Below, piece by piece: positions 3,605 through 15,096 of a stretch of 64,000 nt of DNA (position 1 is the first letter of the stretch; each line of letters opens with the position of its first letter). Position numbers and translations under genes: made by a program. Under the pieces are notes generated by a model, which searched no databases, was not told the origin of the DNA, and saw nothing but the letters and a program-made list of their open reading frames with translations. This DNA comes from Oscillospiraceae bacterium (lineage in GTDB: Bacteria > Bacillota > Clostridia > Oscillospirales > CAG-272), in NCBI GenBank assembly GCA_015065295.1, contig SVQN01000001.1, positions 62,001 through 126,000 on the forward strand, written 5' to 3'.

Positions 3605-5077
3605 TTACGGAAGTTTTTCGACCTTTTCGATGATTTTTTCGAGGCTCTTCTGGAGAACTTTCTGGTTCTTCTGGTAGGTGGAAGCGACTGTGCCGGCGGT
3701 GACGTTGTCACGAACCAGGTCGTCCAGGTTGGCAAAGGCACTGATCGCGGTCTGGTAGGCGAAGCCGAAGTCGATCTTCAGACGTTCCGACGCGAGGTCG
3801 AGCATCTTCATGTCGTTTTCGTCGCCCGCCAGCTTGGTCTTCATCGTGGTTTCGTAGAAGGCCGGACGGACGTAGTTGAAGTGCTGGCAGGAGAGAGCTT
3901 CCGTGATCGTACCGATCATGTCCGCCTTGCCCGCGCTCGATACCGGAATGCCCCAGTATACGTCGGTCGCACAGGTCATGTAGTCTTCCTGGTGTTCGTC
4001 GAGCTTTGGTGCGGGGAGATAGCCGTAGTTGATTTCGGAATCACGGATGACATTGCATACTTCGCGGAGGTTGCAGTAGCAGAACAGGGACTGCCCGTTC
4101 GAGAACATCGTTGCGCCGTAGCCGGTTTCGTAGAAGCCGTAGTTATTGACAATCGGTTCCATCTTTTCCAGATAGATCGTAGCGCGGTCTACGTCGAAGG
4201 CGAGGTAGGGCATATTGTCCGCGTCCTTCTTGATGATGTCGATGCCCATGGAGTTCTGGAGCGTGTAGAAGATTTCGTAGGACAGACCGTACTGGTCGTC
4301 CGCCGTCATCTGACCGTCGCCGTTCTTGTCGGACGTAGCGGCAGCGCACATTTCCACGAGATCGTCGAGGTACCAGTTTCCTTCATAGACGGCATCGTAG
4401 GGGATTTCCAGCCCGTAGTTTTTCGCCATGTCCTTGTTGATGACGAACATACGCATATAGTACAGACAGTAGTAGGACAGGTAGGAGGACGCAACATAGG
4501 ACTTGTCTCCGATGGAGATGGATTCGGTCGAGTCGATCCACCACGGCTGGTCAAAGTTGAACTGGGAAACGGATTTCAGATTGAGGTAGTTGCCGGACGT
4601 ACCCAGATTGATCTGCTGGGTATCTACGCCGAACGCAACGCCGTAGGTGTCGTCTCCGCTCGCAACGAGATTCTTGACGGCGGTCGCCATCGTATCGTCC
4701 GCGTCGGCGAGATCGACATAGGAAATTGCCGCGTTGAATCGGTCTTCGACAGTGCGTGCGGAGTTGTACTGCGCGTCGTTGATGACTTCGCCGTCCAGCT
4801 CGGCGGAGGTAACGGCGTTCGTGGTACGGTTGCTCAGACCGGCGATGATGTATTCGGCACCGCCGAAGTCGGCGTCGGCAAGGTCGTCCATGGCAAGTTC
4901 GGGTTCGGTTTCTTCGGGAACGGTTTCTTCGGCAGCAGCGTCAGCGGCAGCTTCGCCGGCTGCGGCATTGGTGCCGGATGAATTTTCCTCAGCCGTGTCG
5001 GAAGCACAGGAGAACATAACGGATGTTCCCAGCAGAAGCGCGAGGACAAGGGCGAGGAGACGGTTGTTGGATTTCAT
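3605..5077 (-). CDS. Solute-binding-protein-like lipoprotein (orphan)
   Basis: A 490-residue exported lipoprotein: basic N-terminus, Leu/Ala core and a Cys at the end of 'SVMFSC', followed by an Ala/Glu-rich linker of about 40 residues. The remainder resembles family 1 extracellular solute-binding proteins and shares its general plan with the product at 676, for example 'INYGYLPAPKLDE' and 'LSCQHFNYVRPAFYE'. AAAGGAG lies 8 bases before the ATG. It stands alone, with its own promoter and a palindromic terminator, and has no permease partners. It lies just downstream of the cytochrome operon on the same strand, but a terminator separates them, so a functional link is only a guess. Confidence 0.75.
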   Translation of the reverse strand: MKSNNRLLALVLALLLGTSVMFSCASDTAEENSSGTNAAAGEAAADAAAEETVPEETEPELAMDDLADADFGGAEYIIAGLSNRTTNAVTSAELDGEVINDAQYNSARTVEDRFNAAISYVDLADADDTMATAVKNLVASGDDTYGVAFGVDTQQINLGTSGNYLNLKSVSQFNFDQPWWIDSTESISIGDKSYVASSYLSYYCLYYMRMFVINKDMAKNYGLEIPYDAVYEGNWYLDDLVEMCAAATSDKNGDGQMTADDQYGLSYEIFYTLQNSMGIDIIKKDADNMPYLAFDVDRATIYLEKMEPIVNNYGFYETGYGATMFSNGQSLFCYCNLREVCNVIRDSEINYGYLPAPKLDEHQEDYMTCATDVYWGIPVSSAGKADMIGTITEALSCQHFNYVRPAFYETTMKTKLAGDENDMKMLDLASERLKIDFGFAYQTAISAFANLDDLVRDNVTAGTVASTYQKNQKVLQKSLEKIIEKVEKLP

Positions 5078-5123
5078 TGGGACAGCTCCTTTCGGAAATT
5101 TTAATAATATTCACAATATGTTC

Positions 5124-5152
5124 ATTATACCGCAGATTCCCCCATTTTGCAA
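5124..5152 (-). promoter_or_regulatory. Promoter of the 5077 lipoprotein gene
   Basis: TTGCAA (5147-5152), 17 bases, TATAAT (5124-5129) on the minus strand, 47 bases before the start codon. Confidence 0.7.
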
Positions 5153-5182
5153 CCACTTTTTCTGTGAAATTTCAATAACTAC

Positions 5183-5210
5183 AAAAACCACTCCCGCAAA
5201 GAAGTGGTTT
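5183..5210 (-). terminator. Terminator of the cytochrome operon
   Basis: An 8-bp stem (AAACCACT with AGTGGTTT) and a T-run on the minus strand, starting 18 bases past the stop codon of the HzsA-like gene. Confidence 0.65.
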
Positions 5211-5227
5211 CTGCATTTTTTATCGGT

Positions 5228-8200
5228 TTATCCGGCAATTTCCGTACCAATCGTTCGGATTTCCGTGATTGCCGCCCATTCGCCGTTTGCTGTAGTGAAT
5301 CCCGACAGCTTCACGTAGGTTGTTTCCTTCCCGCTCAGATCGAAGGTCATGAATTCCTCCGTCTTCCACAGGTCGATATGTTCCGACGTACCGTCTGAGA
5401 AGGTCACGTCTGCGCCGGTGAACCATGTGTCGTGCGGGAAGTCGCACCGGATCAGGATTTCCAGCGAATCCAGCTTGACCGTCCGTCCGAAGTCGATCAC
5501 GATCTCGTTCGTATCCATCGTTGCCTTGTCGGGACCCCACGACTGCACCGGATAGTCGCCGTGACCGGTGTTCGCCGTGAATCCGTCAATTGCACAGCGC
5601 GCCTCATAGTACGCCGTACCGTTGTCGGCTGCGCTGTTGGTCGATGCGTGCGGGAACACGTTCGCGGCGGATTTGAAGTCATACACGTTTTCCGCCAGAT
5701 TGCGCGGTTCCGCGAGTTCGTCATCGGTCGGAATCCGTGCGCTGATGACGTTGTTGATGTACACGACATTTTTGGAATCATCCAGTGCGCTCGGGAAGAG
5801 ATCGCCCATGTCCGACGGGAACCGGTATTCGAACACTCCGTCCGGACAGTACACGATCGTCTCACCCAGCTTGGACGACAGACAGACCGCGACGTACTTC
5901 TCACCTTCGGGAAGCGTGACGCGCACACCCTGCTTCGGTGCGTAGATTTCCGGTACGTTCAGGAGCGCATAGCCCTTTCCGGAAGCTATGTACGAAGCCG
6001 TACCGTTCGCCTGCAGGAATTCGATGGTCACGTCGCCGGTGTCCGCATAACGTCCCGCCTTTGTGTCGATGACCGCCTTGTTGAGATTGTCGTAATATTC
6101 GCGCTTGCTGCCCTTTTCGTCGTATTCGCGGCGTTCGTTGGAACCCCATTCGACGTTTTCGTCATACGAACCGTACGCCGGAACCACAAGGTCGATCCAG
6201 CATTCGATGGTGCGGATTTCTTCTTCCGTCAGATTTCCGTGACCGGAACGCAGTTTTTCGATCAGCAAACTCTTCGACGAACCGAAGGTCTGCGGAGGAA
6301 CGATTTCCGCGCCGCTCATGGACGACAGGAAGTTGACGAAATCGCCGTCCGGCGTGCAGAGCCAGTTCGTGCCGCTCGGGTAGGAGCCGGTCAGGACGAG
6401 ATACGACAGCGGCCAGAATTTCTTCTGACGGGTACCGATCACGTCGATGCCTTCGAGGGAGAATGCCGCTTCCCGGGAGGAATCGAGGGGGACAACGACT
6501 TCCGCACCGGGGTCTTTCTTATAGGAATACAGGCTCATGTCAAGCTGACGGCCGCCCGCCGTGTTGCAGAGGGATACCGCGAGGATGTTTTCGCCGTTGA
6601 CGAGACAGTCCGCCGCGTCGGAGGCGAGTTCCAGGTCAACGTAATTGTCCACCCAGTCCTTGTCGTAGAAGAGTTCCTTCCCGTTGAGGTAGATGCGGAT
6701 GCCGTCGTCGTAGGTGATATTCGTGCAGAGCGGGGAACCGCGGTACTGCTCGATGTCGTCCACGTTGAACGTGCGGCGGAGGAAAATCGCGTTCTGTCCG
6801 CCGCTCCAGTCGGTTTTCCACTTCACGCCGTCAATGGTGCGGTCGCCGAACGGTGCCATACCGGACTTCCATTTTGTGGAATCATCCTCCCCGGTGATCC
6901 ATCCGTCGGGAGCCTTGCCGAGGTCAGCCGCCTTGATGTAGTCCCACTTCGCCTGCTGACGGACGAAATTCTTGACTTCGCCCTGTGCCGCTTCCGCCGA
7001 GGAGGTCAGACCGAGCGTGAAATAGGTACCTTCGACCCGTACGGAAAGATGGTTATCGCCGAATTTGAACGCTTTCCGCATTTCGTTGGTCACAGGGATA
7101 TTGATTTCGGCAGATTCCGGGTGATCGAGTTCTGCGATCAGCGTCCCGTTGAGGAAAATTTCTGCCTTGCCGCAGAGCTGTCCGGTGAAGGTCAGCCCGC
7201 ATTCGTTGAGGTCATAATTTGTGCCGGTAAAGGTCGTCCATGCGCGGAACGCACCGGTTGTCATAAGGGTATTGTGTTCCTGCGGAGCGGTCCTGCCGTC
7301 GCCGAACGGAGCATGAACGGTGTAGGGATAGTCCGCGTCACCGTCCGGACCTTCTTTGCTGAACGGCGTACCTTCCATCGGCAGATACCGCCATACCGCG
7401 TCTTCCGCGAGAATGGTATCGGCAATGTTCGCCTTGAAGCGCGGAGCCTGCTTCGCATTCACCATCGAGAAGGCTTCCGCCGTATCGGAATGGCAGACGA
7501 CGCAGCTTTCGTCGAGAATCGGCTGCACTTCCTTCAGATACGAGAACCCGACGGAATCGCTGTACGGGTCGTAATCCTCCGGATAATCGTCCATCCACAG
7601 GTCGGGCTGGATTGCCGTCACGCCCTTTTTCATCGCCATCGTGGTCGTTCCCGAAACGGTCGGCGCGACATTTTTGTCCTCGTGACAGCCGACGCAGGAG
7701 AACGTTTCGTTCGGCATCAGCGTCGTCCACGACCGCATGGTCTGGATCACCGAGCCGTTTTCATCCAGAAGCTGGAAGTACAGCGGCGTATTCGCGGGAG
7801 CCGTGAACAGCGCACTGCCGTCTTCCTCCACCGGAACCACGCCGAGAACCTTCTTGATGTCCCACGCGCCGTTGCCGGTCGAAATCGGCGTGAACGGGTC
7901 GGAAGAACCGGAGCCGCGCGCAATGGTCGCACCGATCGCGGAGGTACGGAATTCCAGTTCCACCACGCGGAGATACTTCGCGGAACCGACGGTCACACCT
8001 TCCATAGAGGGACCTTCGTAAACGTTGGAAACGTAGAACGTGCCGGTTTCCGAAGCGTAGTTCACCATGCTCGGACGGGTGAACAGGTCACGTGCATACA
8101 CCGGAACGATCTGGGACGCACCGCTTCCGCCGGATGCTTCGACCAGTTCGACTTCGGTATCCGTGTTGCGGTCATACGCATAGATCGAGAAATCCGCGTT

Positions 8201-9325
8201 CACGCCGCTGTAACGCTTGACGGCGGAGTACAGGAGCAGGTCTTCCGAGAAGGCATAAGGGTACTTGTACTGCTTTCCGTCCTGCCCGAACGTGTCGTAG
8301 CCGCTCAGCTTCTGCGTGCCGTCCTGAAAGACGAAATCCACGGCATCATTGCCGTTCCGTCCGGTTGACGTGTCAATCCAGACGAGCTTGCCGTGCTGAT
8401 AAACGTGATGTCCGGAGGCAATGGAGACGTACAGACCGGCACTTCCGGGAACTTCGCGGGTATGCAGGAGCGAGGTCGGGAAGTCGGAGTTGTTGCCGTA
8501 CAGTTCGGTCTGGTTCGTCCCGTCCTCGAACATCTGGAACACACCCTGAATCCACATCTGCGTGCGGTCGTTGTAGTCCCAGCGGGTGTAGACCACGCGT
8601 CCGTCGGAGGTGACGGTCGGATAGGTCGTATGTACCTGGTCGTAGCCGAGACGGAGGATTTCCGATCCGTCGGCATTGCATTTGTAAAGATTGGAGACGG
8701 GCGTTTTCCAGCAGTCCACCACCTGAATGTCACGGCTGGAATTGAACAGAATCGAGCCGTCGGAGAGATATTTCGGTTCGGTATCCGCGACACCGGAGCC
8801 GAACGTAAGCTGTTTGAATTCGCGGGTTGCAAGGGTCATTTCGTACAGGTGATAATCGTCCACGGCGGACTGCTTCCACGAGAACAGGACTTTCGTACCG
8901 TCCGGCGAAACGTCGGGATCGCGGATCACACCCTGCTTGGATTTCAGAAGAACGCTCTCATAGGTCTGATAGTTGTCCCCGTCCTTCACGATACTGACGA
9001 GAACGAGTTCGGAGCCGGGATTGAAGATGGCTTCGCGGCCTTCGGGGTCTTTGTTGTCGCTGCCGAGGTCTTCCGCGAGAGCTTCGGTGTAGGCGTAATG
9101 CGATGCGCCGAGCTGCTTGTGGCGGACGACGATATAATACGGCGTTTCTTCGTAAATCCGGGCGATGACGTCCGTTTTTTTGCTTCCCGCTTCGTAGGTC
9201 ATGATCTGTTCGGCATCGTCTCCGGGAGAAAGCGTCACGCCTTCACCCGCCGCAAAAATGACGACCGCGCCGCAGATCAGTGTGAGAACGAGGACAAGCG
9301 ACAGAATTTTCACGATTTTCTTCAT
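5228..9325 (-). CDS. HzsA-related exported dihaem cytochrome c with carbohydrate-binding-like domains
   Basis: 1365 residues with a cleavable signal peptide (1-28), hence outside the membrane. Order of parts: TolB-like beta-propeller with 'PDVSPDGTKVLFSW' and 'YPTVTSDGRVVYTRWD' blades (about 60-480); a hydrazine-synthase-alpha-type middle domain, 'EDGSALFTAPANTPLYF' then 'MRSW', ending in the haem site CVGCH (544-548); a second site CVVCH (608-612) after 'VQPILDES'; two jelly-roll-like inserts (about 680-940); the HzsA-type tail 'FWPLSYLVLTG', 'LRSGHGNLTEEEI', 'WIDLVVPAYG' (970-1055); and a discoidin (F5/8 C)-like domain (about 1218-1362). Two c-type haems are therefore predicted. It is the last gene of resB-ccsA-propeller/MauG-like-this. 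AAAGGAGA lies 13 bases before the ATG, a long spacing. Hydrazine synthesis itself is not implied; the electron partner and substrate are unknown. Confidence 0.8.
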   Translation of the reverse strand: MKKIVKILSLVLVLTLICGAVVIFAAGEGVTLSPGDDAEQIMTYEAGSKKTDVIARIYEETPYYIVVRHKQLGASHYAYTEALAEDLGSDNKDPEGREAIFNPGSELVLVSIVKDGDNYQTYESVLLKSKQGVIRDPDVSPDGTKVLFSWKQSAVDDYHLYEMTLATREFKQLTFGSGVADTEPKYLSDGSILFNSSRDIQVVDCWKTPVSNLYKCNADGSEILRLGYDQVHTTYPTVTSDGRVVYTRWDYNDRTQMWIQGVFQMFEDGTNQTELYGNNSDFPTSLLHTREVPGSAGLYVSIASGHHVYQHGKLVWIDTSTGRNGNDAVDFVFQDGTQKLSGYDTFGQDGKQYKYPYAFSEDLLLYSAVKRYSGVNADFSIYAYDRNTDTEVELVEASGGSGASQIVPVYARDLFTRPSMVNYASETGTFYVSNVYEGPSMEGVTVGSAKYLRVVELEFRTSAIGATIARGSGSSDPFTPISTGNGAWDIKKVLGVVPVEEDGSALFTAPANTPLYFQLLDENGSVIQTMRSWTTLMPNETFSCVGCHEDKNVAPTVSGTTTMAMKKGVTAIQPDLWMDDYPEDYDPYSDSVGFSYLKEVQPILDESCVVCHSDTAEAFSMVNAKQAPRFKANIADTILAEDAVWRYLPMEGTPFSKEGPDGDADYPYTVHAPFGDGRTAPQEHNTLMTTGAFRAWTTFTGTNYDLNECGLTFTGQLCGKAEIFLNGTLIAELDHPESAEINIPVTNEMRKAFKFGDNHLSVRVEGTYFTLGLTSSAEAAQGEVKNFVRQQAKWDYIKAADLGKAPDGWITGEDDSTKWKSGMAPFGDRTIDGVKWKTDWSGGQNAIFLRRTFNVDDIEQYRGSPLCTNITYDDGIRIYLNGKELFYDKDWVDNYVDLELASDAADCLVNGENILAVSLCNTAGGRQLDMSLYSYKKDPGAEVVVPLDSSREAAFSLEGIDVIGTRQKKFWPLSYLVLTGSYPSGTNWLCTPDGDFVNFLSSMSGAEIVPPQTFGSSKSLLIEKLRSGHGNLTEEEIRTIECWIDLVVPAYGSYDENVEWGSNERREYDEKGSKREYYDNLNKAVIDTKAGRYADTGDVTIEFLQANGTASYIASGKGYALLNVPEIYAPKQGVRVTLPEGEKYVAVCLSSKLGETIVYCPDGVFEYRFPSDMGDLFPSALDDSKNVVYINNVISARIPTDDELAEPRNLAENVYDFKSAANVFPHASTNSAADNGTAYYEARCAIDGFTANTGHGDYPVQSWGPDKATMDTNEIVIDFGRTVKLDSLEILIRCDFPHDTWFTGADVTFSDGTSEHIDLWKTEEFMTFDLSGKETTYVKLSGFTTANGEWAAITEIRTIGTEIAG

Positions 9326-9347
9326 AATTATTATGCACTCTCCTTTC

Positions 9348-11510
9348 TCAGGTTTCCTTCACGGTCAGAACGTAGGTCGATGCGAGAGGATTTCCTTTTT
9401 TATCTACAATGGAAATTTCCAGACGGTACCGCTCGTCAACGAGAATCATAGAATCTTCGCCGACATCCACATGAACGGCGGTGTTGTACGCCATTTCACC
9501 GAGCGAATACCGGTAATTGACTTCGCCGTCATCCGTGACCCAGCGCACGTGCGCGTAACCCGGTTCGACGTTTTCCGCCTGACAGCGCACGGTGAATCCG
9601 GTAACCTTTGCATAGGACGGAATCCGTCCCTGACCTTCGTTTCCGTTGTCATCCGTCCAGAAGACCTGTTCCACGCCGTAATCCTCGCCGACCGTACCGA
9701 TCGAACGGACGAATTCGGACAGCTTCGCCACATCATCGTCGGATGTTCCCTCCGGAACAAAGTGACGTACCGCATCTTCAATCGTTTTCGCGGAGCCGTT
9801 GTACATATACGGCGCGCTTCGCCATACTTCAACGAGCGTGGGTGTTGCGAAATCACGGTTTTCCCATCCGCCGTCCTCGCCGAGAATCGGGGACTGGTGC
9901 AGTTTCAGATCGGTGTACAGCGGCGCGGGATGGCATTCCGCACAGCCGTACTGCTCAAAGAGAACCTCGCCTTCCGCCGCTGTTTCGGTCAGCGTACCGC
10001 CAAGTTGGAGCGCGGGCGACTCCACGGGAAGCATGGATTTGAGGTATTCGTCGATTGCGCGGTTCGATTCCTCGTCGATCGTGTTGAACTGGATGAACTT
10101 CATCCCCGCACGGACGGCCGTTTCCGCATTCGCACGGATGCCGGTAATCATGACCGGCGGACAGCGGTGCGTGAACATCATCGACACCGCCGATTTCGGA
10201 TTGCCGAGACCGTCGTTGAGGTTGTCCCAGTTGAATCCGTCCACCCGTCCGTCGGGATGACAGGACGCGCAGGCTTCCCAGTTCTGATAGCATTTTGTCG
10301 CGTCGTACCACAGCGTTTCGCCGAGCCGCACGATGTCCGCTTCCGGCTGTTCGCCGAGCGAAAGGGTGGAAACGCTGAAATCGGATGTGTTCATCACGGC
10401 AATGTCGCCGGTGAAATATTCGGTGCAGTAGAGCTTTCCGCCGCTGTACAGGATGTCACGCACACCTTCGCCGGGCATCTGCGTCCGCGTCCGGACGGCA
10501 TTCAGAATCCCGATTTCGTCGGCAAGTTCACGTCCCTTGTTTTCCTTGGAATTCAGGATGTTGTCGAGCTTCTGCATGGGGAAGGAGATAATTTCGCCCG
10601 TACCGGATGCCGCGAAGTAGGCGTTGTCCTCGTCAAAGGCGATCCCCCACGGGGAAGCCGCACCGAGGGTCACGTCGTCGAGCAGAATCGTGTTGACGTG
10701 GGAGTCGGTTTCCGCGTCGATGATAGCGAAGCCGTTCGAGTTGATCCACGCGCCGTCAAGCTGGGTCGTGGGGTATTGATACCGCGCGATCACGGCGGAG
10801 ACAAACAGACGTTTTCCGTCCGGTGTGGCTTCGATATCCTTCACGCCGCCGGTCCCGTTGACGAGGTCGATGGCTCTCTGATACCGGACAGTTCTCACAT
10901 CCTCCAGATCATGGAAAACATGGACGGACGTGCTGACGACCTCTTCATTCGCCGCATCGTCCGGCAGGTGACAGGCGACGTAGAGCTTATCTCCTGCAAT
11001 TGCCGCCGCGATGGGTTCACGGCTGACGTGGAAAGTCGAGGTATCCCCATCGGTTTCCAGATCAATGGCGATGATCGTGTCGGAAAAACGGTTTGTGACA
11101 TACGCAATATGTCCGGCGAATTCCACATCGGTCGGCGTATGTCCGACGGGGTATTCTTTCTCAAGTTTCAGGTCCGTACTCAGCACAGTCAGTGTTCCGT
11201 CCAGACCGCCGCGCGTGACATAAACCTTGCCGTCGTACAGCTTGACGCAGTGTGCGCCGCCGTCGAGGTCAATCTGCGCGGCAATGGTTCCGTCGGGATT
11301 CAGCTTGATGACCCGTCCGCCGGTCTCGTCGGCAGCGTAGACACACCCGTCCGCGTCCACGGCAACAGAGGAGGGGGAAATGTAATTTTCCGCCGCAACC
11401 CGCGTTTCCAGCGTGGGAGTGACGTTGTCCGAAGCGGGTTCCGTCTTGCCGCAGGAAGCGGTCACAAGCAGAAGCACCGCCGCGAACAGCAGATTCCATT
11501 TTGTTTTCAT
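9348..11510 (-). CDS. Exported lipoprotein: beta-propeller fused to a dihaem cytochrome c peroxidase/MauG-like domain
   Basis: I start at the second ATG (11510), which has GGAG 9 bases upstream; the ATG at 11525 overlaps the ccsA stop and has no such site. The product is 720 residues, with a lipobox-like VTASC at the end of its signal sequence. Residues 40-395 read as YncE/NHL-type propeller repeats ('YISPSSVAVDADG', 'HTPTDVEFAGHIAYVTN', 'ATPDGKRLFVSA'). Residues 395-610 carry two haem c sites, CASCH (414-418) and CAECH (523-527), and 'APYMYNGSAKTIEDAVRHF', the family signature around the axial Met of bacterial dihaem peroxidases and MauG. About 100 C-terminal residues look like a beta-sandwich. 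Peroxidase or oxidative maturation activity is possible. The propeller-plus-peroxidase arrangement matches the fused beta-gamma subunit of some hydrazine synthases. Confidence 0.85.
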   Translation of the reverse strand: MKTKWNLLFAAVLLLVTASCGKTEPASDNVTPTLETRVAAENYISPSSVAVDADGCVYAADETGGRVIKLNPDGTIAAQIDLDGGAHCVKLYDGKVYVTRGGLDGTLTVLSTDLKLEKEYPVGHTPTDVEFAGHIAYVTNRFSDTIIAIDLETDGDTSTFHVSREPIAAAIAGDKLYVACHLPDDAANEEVVSTSVHVFHDLEDVRTVRYQRAIDLVNGTGGVKDIEATPDGKRLFVSAVIARYQYPTTQLDGAWINSNGFAIIDAETDSHVNTILLDDVTLGAASPWGIAFDEDNAYFAASGTGEIISFPMQKLDNILNSKENKGRELADEIGILNAVRTRTQMPGEGVRDILYSGGKLYCTEYFTGDIAVMNTSDFSVSTLSLGEQPEADIVRLGETLWYDATKCYQNWEACASCHPDGRVDGFNWDNLNDGLGNPKSAVSMMFTHRCPPVMITGIRANAETAVRAGMKFIQFNTIDEESNRAIDEYLKSMLPVESPALQLGGTLTETAAEGEVLFEQYGCAECHPAPLYTDLKLHQSPILGEDGGWENRDFATPTLVEVWRSAPYMYNGSAKTIEDAVRHFVPEGTSDDDVAKLSEFVRSIGTVGEDYGVEQVFWTDDNGNEGQGRIPSYAKVTGFTVRCQAENVEPGYAHVRWVTDDGEVNYRYSLGEMAYNTAVHVDVGEDSMILVDERYRLEISIVDKKGNPLASTYVLTVKET

Positions 11511-11524
11511 AAGATATATCTCCA

Positions 11525-12304
11525 TTAATTATAAGTATGCATCGACGTTTCCGACGCAGTCATGCCGTTGACGAAGAAGAAGGTGACGATCACACACGCA
11601 AATCCGGCGATCAGCACCGCATCACGGAATTTCGTCAAATCCGCACTCCGGCGGATATGCAGCCACGTCATGAACATCAGCCATGTTACCAGTGCCCAGC
11701 ATTCCTTGATGTCCCAGCTCCAGAACGCTCCCCAGACCTCGTTCGCCCAGACCGCGCCGCACAGCATCCCCGCTGTCATAAAGGGGAACAGGACGCACAC
11801 GCAGTCGTAAATGCCGCCGTCAAGCTGCTTCTGCCGCAGAGGATCGTTCCGCACGAAAAATTTCGTCACCGTCATGGCAAACGCGGCCGCCGCCATGATG
11901 TAGGAAATCACATACATCAGAATGTGCGGCACAAAATAGACCGAGCGCAGAGCCGGCGGGAACTGCCAGACGGACGCAATGTCCATGAAGCACAGCCCCA
12001 TCGACAGGATGAGCGAACACCCGATCACATACGGCGCAGCCCAGGCTCCATCCCGCAGGAACGCCATGTAGAGGTAAACCGCGCCGAACAATGCCGACGC
12101 GAACGTCAGCACCTGATACATACTGACGAACGGGACGTAATCGTTCACGAGAAAATTGTTGACGACCAGCGTGACCGAACCGGCTTCCGCAAGAATCCAG
12201 AAGACCGCGCCGGGTTTCGTTTTTTTGAGAAGGTACAGGACGAACGCCGCCGTGTAGAACACTGTGGCGATGATAATGATGATCCGAAGGATGGTGTCAG
12301 TCAT
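11525..12304 (-). CDS. ccsA: Cytochrome c biogenesis protein CcsA/ResC
   Basis: A 259-residue polytopic membrane protein of the haem-handling CcsA/CcmC/CcmF superfamily. The diagnostic tryptophan-rich motif is present as 'WGAFWSWDIKECWALVTW', flanked by His-containing helices ('YFVPHILMYVISY' upstream, 'TWLHIRR' downstream). With ResB it forms the System II synthase that carries haem across the membrane and attaches it to CxxCH cysteines. Its start overlaps the resB end by 8 bases, with AAGGAGG 9 bases before the ATG, so translation is coupled. Its stop sits just before the MauG-like gene. Finding it with two CxxCH proteins in one operon argues strongly that they receive haem. Confidence 0.9.
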   Translation of the reverse strand: MTDTILRIIIIIATVFYTAAFVLYLLKKTKPGAVFWILAEAGSVTLVVNNFLVNDYVPFVSMYQVLTFASALFGAVYLYMAFLRDGAWAAPYVIGCSLILSMGLCFMDIASVWQFPPALRSVYFVPHILMYVISYIMAAAAFAMTVTKFFVRNDPLRQKQLDGGIYDCVCVLFPFMTAGMLCGAVWANEVWGAFWSWDIKECWALVTWLMFMTWLHIRRSADLTKFRDAVLIAGFACVIVTFFFVNGMTASETSMHTYN

Positions 12305-13019
12305 GAGCGGATTCCTCCTTCGTTTTCTTATGCGGACGGACCGCGTTTCCGACGAGCAGTTCGAGAACGGTTCCCGCAGCCAGCACGATCACGCCTGCTT
12401 TCACGACATATTCGCCTGGATCACGGCGGAAGAGCAGATTGACGTATTCCCCGATCCCGTCCGCCGTGAAGCCCTTGCCGTGGTTCATGAGATAGATTTT
12501 CCAGCCATTTTTCCGCACGGGATGATTCACGGAAAGTTCTTTGTTTTCGACTTTCAGCGTCACCGCGTCTGCAAACAGAAGATCGGCGGAATATTGTCTG
12601 TCCGATCCGTCGTCGTACCTTTCTATCTCAAAATTTTCAACGCAGATATTGAAGCCGAGATCACAGATTTCCCCATTTTCGCGCTGGATGTTCGAATAAT
12701 AGGTATACACCTCTTCACTCACCGGAACCGCCGCCGTAACGGAATCGCCGCCCAGTTCAAACAAAGCGAATCCGGCGAGCATCAGGACGATTCCCGCGTG
12801 GGTCAGATAAAATCCGATCCGTTTCGGGAGATTTCCGGACGGTCGGGCAAATACCAGAGAACCGGCCATCAGGATTCCGCCGAATGTCAGAACCGCTGTC
12901 ACGGCGATTCCACGGAAGTTTACGGGAACCCCGGCGGAAAACAGGATCGTCAGGACGAGAAAAAACAGCGTGATCCCGAGGAGGAGAAGTCCGATGACGG
13001 TATGTACACGGCGTTTCAT
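12297..13019 (-). CDS. resB: Cytochrome c biogenesis protein ResB/CcsB
   Basis: A 240-residue membrane protein, first gene of the cytochrome operon. Helices at about 8-28, 36-58, 70-88 and 205-225 surround a large extracytoplasmic loop. 'FYLTHAGIVLMLAGFALF' holds the conserved histidine of the third helix, and 'VNHPVRKNGWKIYLMNHGK' is the ResB loop signature. It is shorter than Bacillus ResB (over 500 residues) but close to the compact CcsB forms seen in other anaerobes. It works with CcsA in haem ligation at the outer face. GGAGGG is 7 bases before the ATG. The thiol-reducing partners (CcdA, ResA) are not in the window. Confidence 0.85.
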   Translation of the reverse strand: MKRRVHTVIGLLLLGITLFFLVLTILFSAGVPVNFRGIAVTAVLTFGGILMAGSLVFARPSGNLPKRIGFYLTHAGIVLMLAGFALFELGGDSVTAAVPVSEEVYTYYSNIQRENGEICDLGFNICVENFEIERYDDGSDRQYSADLLFADAVTLKVENKELSVNHPVRKNGWKIYLMNHGKGFTADGIGEYVNLLFRRDPGEYVVKAGVIVLAAGTVLELLVGNAVRPHKKTKEESAHD

Positions 13020-13064
13020 GGAAAAGCCCTCCGTTCATGGAATGGAATTGAAAGAATTATCTTT

Positions 13065-13093
13065 ATTATAACACGGGCAGGACGATTGTACAA
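13065..13093 (-). promoter_or_regulatory. Promoter of the resB-ccsA-cytochrome operon
   Basis: TATAAT at 13065-13070 with TTGTAC at 13088-13093, 17-base spacer, 46 bases before the resB start. The -35 is weak, which would suit activation or an alternative sigma factor. Confidence 0.6.
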
Positions 13094-13235
13094 GATGATT
13101 TTTTCAGGATTTACAGGACGCACCGCAATTTGACATTATGGGACAGATGAGGTATACTGTAAAAAATATCAACGAGCAATCCGAAATCTGACGAACATCA
13201 GAATGATAAGCCAAACCTTCCCCTTGCGCCCAACG

Positions 13236-13553
13236 TTGTCATTCCGAAGGCGAAACTTGCTGAAAATCAAAACTGCACGTCCTGCCTGAGGAATCTTTGC
13301 ACGCCACTGTGTCATCCGTAGAGAAAGTCCGTGGTTGTGTTGAAATTTCGACTTCAGAGGTTTACGAACGCCTGTAACGAACAATTTGCACAAATATAGG
13401 GACAGCAGATTATACGTTAGGACAAAGTTGAACCTCTGTAGCTGAATAGTTGTGAATACCACGGGCATTTTTTACGGCTTACACAGTGGCGTGCAAAGAT
13501 TCCTCGGACAAGAACTTCAGTTGAAATTTATAGTAATAAGTCCTCGGAATGAC
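13236..13553. repeat. Family E element, ~318 bases with ~75-base imperfect inverted ends
   Basis: The left end (GTCATTCCGA... to ...GAATCTTTGCACGCCACTGTG) recurs inverted on the right (CACAGTGGCGTGCAAAGATTC... to ...TCGGAATGAC). The interior has no credible coding frame; the 99-codon frame here is not preceded by a ribosome-binding site. It fills most of the 680-base gap between the cytochrome operon promoter and the ECF sigma gene. The GTCATTCCGA...GAATC pattern resembles non-autonomous inverted-repeat elements common in gut bacteria. Confidence 0.65.
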
Positions 13554-13701
13554 AACGGGAAGCTGAATACGAATGAATTCTGTCTATTTTCGGATTTGCT
13601 CATTTATAGGTAAAAAATAAAAATTTTTTCTTCCTTCCCGTAAAGAAATTCCGTTCTCCGGTGACTATATCCATGAACCCACATTCCACGGAGGAACCGA
13701 C

Positions 13702-15096
13702 ATGACCGAACATTATCCCTATCTCTACGGCTACATTGCCAGCCGCATTTCCTCGCTTGCCGATACCGAGGACATTCTTCAGGAAACCTACCTCGCCGCC
13801 ATCGTTTCGCGTACGACCCTGTCCGACGAAACGAAGATTAAAGCGTGGCTGCGCGGCATCGCGGACAACAAAATCAAGCAGTATTACCGCCGTCAGGCGA
13901 TTTACCGCGCCCGTCACACCGGCGAAGAAGCGGATGAGGAACTTCCGTCCCCCGACACATCTGCCGACCGTATGACCGCCGAAACCGCTCTGGCACGTCT
14001 GCACGAGGAAGTCTCCCGTCTGCCGGAGGATTTCCGGAACTGCGCGGTTGTTTCGCTGATGTGCGGACTGTCCGGTGCGGATGCCGCCGAAATCCTGAAC
14101 GTTCCGGTTCAGACCGTGTACAACCGGGTTCACAAAACCAAGCAGATTCTGCGTGAACGACTGGAGGACATTATGGACATCTCTCTCGAAACCTTTGCCG
14201 CCCTGCTCGACGACGGAAAATCCAAAACCGAGCGCACCTGCGAATATCTCCGCACTTTTTACGCCTTGAACGACGCACAGAAATACGACGACATGGCGGT
14301 CCTGCTCATGACCGCGCCCGTCTTTGCGTCCGACTGCCCGATGGCGCATTATATCATCATGCAGTACTGTACGATGGCGGTGCGGATCATGCGCGGTCCG
14401 AACGCCGGGACGGTCAAGCCCGCGCTGAAACGGCTCGGAGAATCGGAATTCCGTCTGGCGGAAAAGCTCGGTCTTGCGGGCATTCTGGACGATGATACTG
14501 GTGAGGAAATCCCGGAATATCAGTTTTACGAATCCTTTGCGGACTTTTATTCCGCGATGGGCGATCACGAAGCGGCGTTTGCCGTGTGCGAAAAAGTCCG
14601 CGAACTCGGCTGTCCGCGGGAAATGCAGTATGCGATGACTCTACAGGATGCCGGACAGTACGAAGAAGCGATGGAAGTTTTCAAAAGGGAAGCTGAACGC
14701 GCCGGTGAGACATCGCCCGACCGCTACATGGCGTACAACCGCATCTACTGCTGTCTGCGGAACCTCGGCGATCTCCGCGGCGGTCTGGAATATCAGCTGA
14801 AAAACTACACGGCGATCAAACAGGGGCTGATTTACGCCGAGCCGGATGCCAACGCGCATTTCCTCGGCGGCGAAGCGTATTCACTCGCCATGACCTACGC
14901 TTATCTCGACGAACCGGCGGACATGATGAAGTATCTTACGGAAGCCGTGTCGATCAACCGCTGCTACCGTGACTGGGCACGCGCACAGGGAGCCTTTGCG
15001 AAGTACCGGGACACGGAGGAATTCGTGAAACTCTGCGGCGGCGGGGAAGGAAAGCAGTACAGCATCCACGCCGGCGGATATCATGAGTTTGAATGA
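13702..15096 (+). CDS. ECF-type sigma factor with C-terminal TPR-like extension
   Basis: 464 residues, more than twice a minimal ECF sigma factor. Residues 1-70 are region 2 ('DTEDILQETYLAAI', then 'IKAWLRGIADNKIKQYYRR'). Residues about 95-155 are region 4, ending in a helix-turn-helix ('GADAAEILNVPVQTVYNRVH'). The rest (about 165-450) is all-helical with paired-helix spacing and Tyr/Ala/Gly-rich turns, as in tetratricopeptide repeats ('FYSAMGDHEAAFAVCEKV', 'GQYEEAMEVFKREAERAG'). Such tails usually regulate the sigma factor or bind a partner in place of an anti-sigma gene. GGAGG is 7 bases before the ATG. It is divergent from the cytochrome operon, about 0.7 kb away, so it could control it, but no promoter match was tested. 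Confidence 0.8.
   Translation: MTEHYPYLYGYIASRISSLADTEDILQETYLAAIVSRTTLSDETKIKAWLRGIADNKIKQYYRRQAIYRARHTGEEADEELPSPDTSADRMTAETALARLHEEVSRLPEDFRNCAVVSLMCGLSGADAAEILNVPVQTVYNRVHKTKQILRERLEDIMDISLETFAALLDDGKSKTERTCEYLRTFYALNDAQKYDDMAVLLMTAPVFASDCPMAHYIIMQYCTMAVRIMRGPNAGTVKPALKRLGESEFRLAEKLGLAGILDDDTGEEIPEYQFYESFADFYSAMGDHEAAFAVCEKVRELGCPREMQYAMTLQDAGQYEEAMEVFKREAERAGETSPDRYMAYNRIYCCLRNLGDLRGGLEYQLKNYTAIKQGLIYAEPDANAHFLGGEAYSLAMTYAYLDEPADMMKYLTEAVSINRCYRDWARAQGAFAKYRDTEEFVKLCGGGEGKQYSIHAGGYHEFE

Follow-up and report, generated by a model that had tools for sequence, protein, structure and literature searches.

The hydrazine synthase (HZS) of anammox bacteria, as seen in the Kuenenia HzsABC structure (PDB ID: 5c2v), consists of an alpha subunit with a propeller and two haem domains, a beta propeller and a di-haem gamma subunit. 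Tyr591 of the alpha subunit is the proximal ligand of haem alpha-I, and Cys165, His144 and Asp168 of the gamma subunit sit at haem gamma-I (accessible parts of PMC12758564 and PMC12607021). Cys303, which shares a zinc site with His587, is also missing from some anammox species (PMC12758564, accessible part). The same part of that study (Hagglund et al. 2025) divides HZS homologues outside anammox bacteria, from Planctomycetota and others, into clades I–IV, describes these other clades as lacking key HZS residues, and includes Bacteroidota and 'Bacillus' among the beta-gamma homologues. Searching its main text for 'Clostridi', 'Bacillota', 'ResB' and 'cytochrome c biogenesis' gave no match.

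Two further described systems are related to the locus reported here. With the di-haem peroxidase/MauG/MbnH superfamily it shares the fold family and the two CxxCH motifs of the gamma half, and with System II (ResB/CcsA) the tryptophan-rich haem motif of CcsA and a ResB match. A literature search covering titles and the starts of abstracts, with long lists taken in part, returned no report on such a four-gene unit in gut Clostridia.

Organization of the locus

The window, i.e., the whole stretch of 64,000 nucleotides analysed here, carries four genes head to tail on the minus strand at 5228-13019: resB, ccsA, an HzsB/HzsC-like di-haem fusion (HzsBC-like) and an HzsA-like gene. Their place and strand agree with an earlier note made from the DNA letters. 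The features are as follows, in the direction of transcription.

13065..13092, minus strand: promoter-like site, TGTACA-16-TATAAT, in which TG precedes the second hexamer (consensus match only)
12297..13019, minus strand: resB, short form, 240 aa (PF05140)
11525..12304, minus strand: ccsA, haem-handling cytochrome c synthase subunit (PF01578 and the tryptophan-rich motif WGAFWSWD)
9348..11525 (likely start 11510), minus strand: HzsB-HzsC-like fusion, 725 aa
HzsBC-like, near the start: lipobox-like LVTASC (read by eye)
HzsBC-like, residues about 45-390: propeller
HzsBC-like, residues about 395-612: di-haem CCP/MauG-like domain with CxxCH at 419-423 and 528-532
HzsBC-like, residues 616-725: C-terminal beta domain
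5228..9325, minus strand: HzsA-like exported protein, 1365 aa
HzsA-like, residues about 60-420: TolB/PD40-like propeller
HzsA-like, residues 447-549: HZS_alpha middle domain with CxxCH at 544-548
HzsA-like, second haem domain: CxxCH at 608-612, followed by beta-sandwich-like inserts and resuming at about 950-1090
HzsA-like, residues 1232-1356: F5/8-type-C-like end (match below cut-off)
about 5183..5210, minus strand: terminator-like hairpin and T-run after hzsA (read by eye)

With the listed starts, resB and ccsA overlap by 8 bases and ccsA and the HzsBC-like gene by 1 base, and the latter is separated from the HzsA-like gene by 22 bases. The true start of the HzsBC-like gene is likely M6 (11510), since GGAG precedes this codon and the corresponding genes of two other clostridial loci (L012 and L013) start there. 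The promoter-like site, read from 13092 to 13065, ends 45 bases upstream of resB; the region 4900-13750 holds 10 promoter-type consensus matches, compared with 4.6 (sd 1.9) in shuffles. The hairpin is absent from the list of the hairpin scan because its loop of 10 exceeds the limit of that scan. The four genes are presumably transcribed as one unit.

Contamination, which the earlier note had raised, was considered and judged unlikely, given that the unit recurs in other clostridial assemblies, that it differs little in G+C from its flanks, and that its neighbours, read by eye, resemble housekeeping genes.

Homology of the two haem proteins to hydrazine synthase

The HzsA-like protein matches the Pfam profile HZS_alpha (PF18582) with 118.7 bits (cut-off 26.6, E 1.7e-34), and NCBIfam hydrazine_alpha with 53 bits (1.3e-14), far below the curated cut-off of 800. 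The alpha plan of a propeller, a haem middle domain and a haem C-terminal domain is present, and the best PDB match of the predicted structure is Kuenenia HZS (5c2v). The HzsBC-like protein matches Pfam CCP_MauG (PF03150) with 27.7 bits (cut-off 25.6, E 4.7e-6) and NCBIfam hydrazine_BC with 66.9 bits (1e-18), far below the curated cut-off of 1250; hydrazine_beta and hydrazine_gamma also match significantly, again far below their curated cut-offs. Both the beta propeller and the di-haem gamma part are recognised by sequence. Its predicted structure also has 5c2v as the best PDB match, with the fold likeness covering the beta part; 5c2v_C was not among the 50 matches listed in the fold searches for the gamma half, which the sequence profile does match. 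The same profile matches the di-haem peroxidases 3o5c (9.1e-20) and 1iqc (3.1e-14). With both Pfam profiles over cut-off, and with the sequence-profile and fold matches to 5c2v, the likeness to the alpha, beta and gamma subunits seen in the earlier note can be taken with high confidence as homology to HZS, and the existence of the module is held at the same confidence.

The haem motifs are kept across the homologues and are thus not chance occurrences, which answers a doubt left in the earlier note. Both CxxCH motifs of the HzsBC-like protein, Cys and His of each, are kept in 141/141 HzsBC rows, and each of the four HzsA haem cysteines in 100 or 101 of 103 HzsA rows. W433, D434, D438 and K444 of the HzsBC-like protein are likewise found in 141/141 rows. 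In the beta loop beside the tunnel, P252, Q255 and W260 are present in 140/141, the one other row being gapped. Nearly invariant in HzsA are Cys205 (99/103 rows) and His307 (100/103), which may line the alpha haem pocket.

The places of the HZS active-site residues are occupied differently. The Tyr591 place is N552, in a column with Asn in 80 of 103 HzsA rows, and in 1/100 rows a Tyr follows the haem motif at a distance of up to 8 residues. Cys303 aligns beside N278/N279, where no Cys is present; the CxxCH His at the His587 place is kept. In the gamma half, the His144 place is I460 (column I 59, V 29, S 27, T 15, A 7, W 3 and H 1 of 141), and Cys165 and Asp168 fall in an unaligned loop lacking a conserved Cys: any Cys in 463-500 occurs in 35/141 HzsBC rows, at most 20 per column, and the window has none. 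Judged from these alignments, the kept haem and loop residues combined with the changed active-site places indicate that the family retains the HZS architecture with altered catalytic ligands. Hydrazine synthesis is unlikely because the HZS active-site residues are missing, in line with the earlier note, which saw no sign of hydrazine chemistry. Identity as a true hydrazine synthase was rejected on these missing residues and on the scores far below the curated cut-offs.

In anammox bacteria, as in the window, the beta-gamma gene precedes alpha, and the beta-gamma fusion of the window resembles that of Scalindua japonica (PMC12758564, accessible part). Unlike anammox HZS, the alpha protein of the window has inserted modules and an F5/8C-like tail, the locus has its own haem-attachment genes and a clostridial host, and equivalents of Tyr591, Cys303 and His144 and a conserved Cys for Cys165 are lacking. 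The homologues of clades I–IV share with the window the co-located alpha and fused beta-gamma and the non-conservation of HZS residues; clades I–III, however, place alpha before beta-gamma with an FG-GAP gene nearby, and the clade of the window is likely nearest to clade IV (comparison with the accessible part of PMC12758564). As a correction to the earlier note, HZS-like proteins beyond anammox bacteria have already been published, and they are abundant in planctomycete-type bacteria; the clostridial unit was not found in the accessible part of that source.

Distribution and ancestry of the unit

A contig scan yielded 179 stretches encoding HzsA relatives. Eighty were kept, 14 of them clostridial (L012-L025) and the others mainly from Planctomycetota, Verrucomicrobiota, Lentisphaerota and Hydrogenedentota. 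Nine of the 14 clostridial records are labelled ungulate hindgut, the public clostridial relatives are labelled Clostridia or Oscillospiraceae, and the host of the window likely comes from an animal gut. The order resB-ccsA-HzsBC-HzsA is found in 12/14 clostridial loci, with flanking genes that vary by lineage; in L017, resB and ccsA are absent within the stretch covered, and the L024 stretch begins just before hzsA. The order is also kept in L135 and L136, and L137 has resB, ccsA, HzsA (1903 aa) and HzsBC (1148 aa), i.e., with the two large genes swapped.

In the related genomes, HzsA, HzsBC and ResB (the last over cut-off) occur in the identical 7 of 59 (own included), so some relatives do share the cluster, contrary to what would have refuted the earlier note. 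One further genome of the 59 (G020) has ResB over cut-off without HzsA or HzsBC, its resB adjoining a gene for a protein with four CxxCH, and two more have ResB below cut-off. PF18582 was found in 7/59 genomes of this relatives search, 7/394 of the order and 4/391 of the class, the own genome being included in each. By comparison, 12 genomes from which planctomycete, verrucomicrobial or lentisphaeral loci derive hold 7 to 121 matches each, with 107 and 121 in two Phycisphaerae.

In a quick tree of 98 HzsA rows, in which rows with long branches and odd composition were flagged, a branch with SH-aLRT 100 separates the 15 clostridial rows (window included) from all others, and their placement next to rows from Lentisphaerota and Kiritimatiellota has weak support (84). 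The simplest reading is a single old transfer into Clostridia.

Another arrangement is found in L132 and L133, from another family of the same class, with CcsA-like, HzsA-like (704 aa each) and HzsBC-like (870 and 874 aa) proteins in one row. The haem-lyase-like protein of L132 matches Cytochrom_C_asm and CcmF_C over cut-off, and its NrfE-type score is below cut-off. Of the best 120 of 466 relatives of the L132 HzsBC-like protein, 22 combine PF18582 and the di-haem part in one protein; the domains of two such fusions (P0277 and P0280) were confirmed directly.

Haem attachment and haem supply

The unit contains the System II pair, ResB together with CcsA. ResB matches PF05140 with 78.8 bits (cut-off 24.6, E 5.1e-22) over profile positions 150-268 of 486; against NCBIfam, it gives no hit with an E of 1 or less. 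CcsA matches Cytochrom_C_asm (PF01578) over cut-off with 84.2 bits (E 1.3e-23), and TIGR03144, the CcsB equivalog, with 125.1 bits, below the cut-off of 187.6. The window differs from System II in its short ResB and in this equivalog score. A thiol-reducing CcdA-type protein is indicated in the own genome by a PF02683 match over cut-off and, with this genome counted, in 4/11 carriers. These 11 carriers are all those from the relatives and order searches, with completeness of 71-99%; six of them reach 90% completeness or more with contamination of 5% or less. A ccsA-like gene is present in 11/11. The dedicated assembly system proposed in the earlier note is supported in that resB and ccsA travel with both cytochromes in the genomes and loci counted above; resB and ccsA are likely haem-attachment genes dedicated to the two haem proteins.

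Ferrochelatase was found in 0/11 carriers and 8/14 controls, cytochrome bd in 0/11 carriers and 10/14 controls, and AhbD over cut-off in 0/11 carriers. AhbD was judged by the cut-off alone because matches to radical-SAM proteins below it occur in 11/11 carriers and 14/14 controls. As no recognised enzyme for the last step of haem synthesis was found in the carriers by these searches, they probably scavenge haem and spend it on the HzsA/HzsBC complex.

Polysaccharide-related modules in relatives

In the HzsBC-like protein of L132, a type I dockerin (59.1 bits, cut-off 22.9) accompanies a lectin domain. Precomputed domains show a dockerin in 28 of the best 120 of its 466 relatives, a list biased towards dockerin and lectin proteins because the query carries both; in 15 of these 120, all domains shown are of lectin type or of other kinds that bind no haem. 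Among the best 120 of 1313 relatives of the HzsBC-like protein of the window, one, P0081, has a dockerin (30.8 bits, cut-off 22.9). Dockerins over cut-off were also found in P0264 from Pseudobacteroides cellulosolvens, a species that forms cellulosomes (34.0 bits), P0266 from Anaerobacterium chartisolvens, P0267 from a Ruminiclostridium and P0271, a Spirochaetales record, and P0272 carries CBM2 and CBM6. For the proteins of the window itself, the matches listed at E up to 1 include neither a dockerin nor an assigned CBM, and the dockerin match of L017 (19.5) is below the cut-off of 22.9. Dockerins are found on proteins other than polysaccharide enzymes, too.

The distribution of dockerins over the beta-gamma tree requires five changes. 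P0081 adjoins the clade of the window on a long branch, and the other dockerin-rich relatives, with about 36% identity to the window, belong to a different large branch. The P. cellulosolvens genome has 212 dockerin genes, about 85 of them without a CAZy module, and a search of the main text of its description for ricin, cytochrome, heme and redox gave no match (PMC5590126).

Six of ten hand-picked neighbours in four planctomycete, verrucomicrobial or lentisphaeral loci are of glycan type: two sulfatases, a pectate lyase, GH16, GH95 and a 3-keto-disaccharide hydrolase. In one Phycisphaerae genome, sulfatases are mildly commoner near alpha-like genes (5/95 versus 2/108 in the background), a weak difference counted on proteins of 200-1100 aa alone and after 23/131 background proteins were dropped from four regions holding alpha-like genes. 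In Clostridia, neighbouring genes gave no shared clue to function, as they change from lineage to lineage. A Gfo/Idh/MocA oxidoreductase was observed near the unit in L135 and L136, and two AP_endonuc_2 proteins and a BD-FAE-type esterase in L135; this hint of sugar chemistry is confined to a single genus.

Proposed function and alternatives

Our preferred reading, for which we would claim slightly less than even chances, is a surface haem redox enzyme with dedicated haem assembly, aimed at plant polysaccharide or its decorations. For plant polysaccharide as the substrate in particular, our confidence is moderate to low. The guess of the earlier note at oxidative attack on a glycan gains support because relatives carry dockerin, CBM and lectin modules, and such an attack by the window's own complex is suggested by way of these relatives. 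Here, an exported redox complex with four haems, descended from HZS-type proteins, would be assembled by its own ResB/CcsA, with haem scavenged if the last synthesis step is truly missing. The alpha and beta-gamma proteins would bind each other as in HZS, an idea helped by the natural beta-gamma/alpha fusions in relatives, and a small intermediate may leave the gamma-type haem and reach the alpha haem via a tunnel beside the beta loop P252, Q255 and W260. Most speculatively, an oxidant could be activated, or electrons could enter, at the gamma haem pair, and the substrate could lie on the glycan side. No gene for an electron-transfer partner is found within the four-gene unit.

A surface peroxidase, whose gamma-type haem pair removes hydrogen peroxide in the manner of bacterial cytochrome c peroxidase (bCcP), would explain the PF03150 match over cut-off and the profile matches to 3o5c and 1iqc. 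The distal methionine of the second haem, at what we take to be its aligned place in HzsBC, is replaced by F589, with Met in 2/141 rows of this column. The place of the inter-haem tryptophan of bCcP/MauG enzymes, whose role is given in the accessible part of PMC12758564, is I460 in the window, with Trp in 3/141 rows. Together with its propeller fusion and HzsA-like partner, this Ile sets the window apart from the di-haem peroxidase/MauG/MbnH superfamily, and it weakens for the clade of the window the peroxide reduction that the earlier note had also considered; the dockerin-bearing lineage, however, has Trp at this place. Moreover, a peroxidase leaves the alpha protein without a role, yet HzsA and HzsBC share the same genomes. 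We therefore regard this alternative as unlikely.

Four haem c motifs on two proteins with export-type N-termini (read by eye) would also suit a surface reductase that passes fermentation electrons to an outside acceptor, be it humic, phenolic or metal. Such a route is quite unlikely, as the unit has no membrane cytochrome or quinol dehydrogenase, no fifth gene is kept across the clostridial lineages, and cytochrome bd was not found in the 11 carriers. Least probable is HZS-like nitrogen chemistry with altered haem ligands (NO or hydroxylamine reduction, or N-N bond making), which has in its favour the same subunits, the tunnel-side loop and the beta-gamma then alpha gene order of anammox bacteria, but against it the altered places of Tyr591, Cys303 and His144, the lack of a conserved Cys for Cys165, the like conclusion for other homologues in the accessible part of PMC12758564, and more than 100 paralogues in some genomes, a misfit for a single core reaction.

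Implications

In strict anaerobes, both cellulosomes and the breakdown of fibre in the gut are described as hydrolytic. If the preferred reading of a glycan-directed surface redox enzyme is true, an HZS-derived haem complex would give anaerobic fibre degradation a redox arm, the basis being the dockerin, CBM and lectin fusions in relatives and an own haem lyase despite no recognised end enzyme of haem synthesis. A wider version, which we consider doubtful, would make the family an HZS-fold haem redox enzyme of plant-fibre degradation in strict anaerobes: docked to the cellulosome in some species, encoded in gut Clostridia as a four-gene unit with private assembly and scavenged haem, and acting as an anaerobic counterpart of the cellulose-loosening copper oxygenases. 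The finding is also relevant to where hydrazine synthase came from: this large family outside anammox bacteria shares with HZS its subunits, tunnel-side loop and gene pairing, and offers a concrete, ancestor-like set with testable activity.

Fusions, conserved residues and variants

Among the 120 listed relatives (of 466 found) of the fused beta-gamma di-haem (HzsBC-like) protein of locus L132, P0277, P0280 and 20 others are naturally joined to the alpha-like protein as one chain. In the HzsA-like protein of the window, Cys205 and His307 are nearly invariant (99 and 100 of 103 rows, respectively); both lie outside the haem motifs and are candidate metal or pocket ligands. Locus L137 carries all four genes, with the two large ones swapped, and encodes oversized variants of both:

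L137, 2-3445: HzsBC-like variant, 1148 aa
L137, 3472-9180: HzsA-like variant, 1903 aa

The 1148-aa variant bears an FctA/pilin isopeptide-type domain, which perhaps has a role in wall attachment.

Genomic surroundings and paralogues

Upstream of resB lies a divergent gene that, by our own reading, looks like a sigma factor; a similar gene was found again near the unit in the clostridial loci L012 and L013.

Window, 13702-15096: divergent gene upstream of resB

Genome G020, of the same genus, lacks the hydrazine synthase-like unit; its locus L134 encodes a longer ResB adjoining a protein with four CxxCH motifs; we read the neighbouring genes as resembling Rnf subunits.

L134, 6252-7634: longer ResB
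L134, 4890-6167: four-CxxCH protein

Single Phycisphaerae genomes contain 107 (G424, locus L026) and 121 (G425, locus L030) HZS_alpha-domain matches, which is an unusual paralogue expansion.
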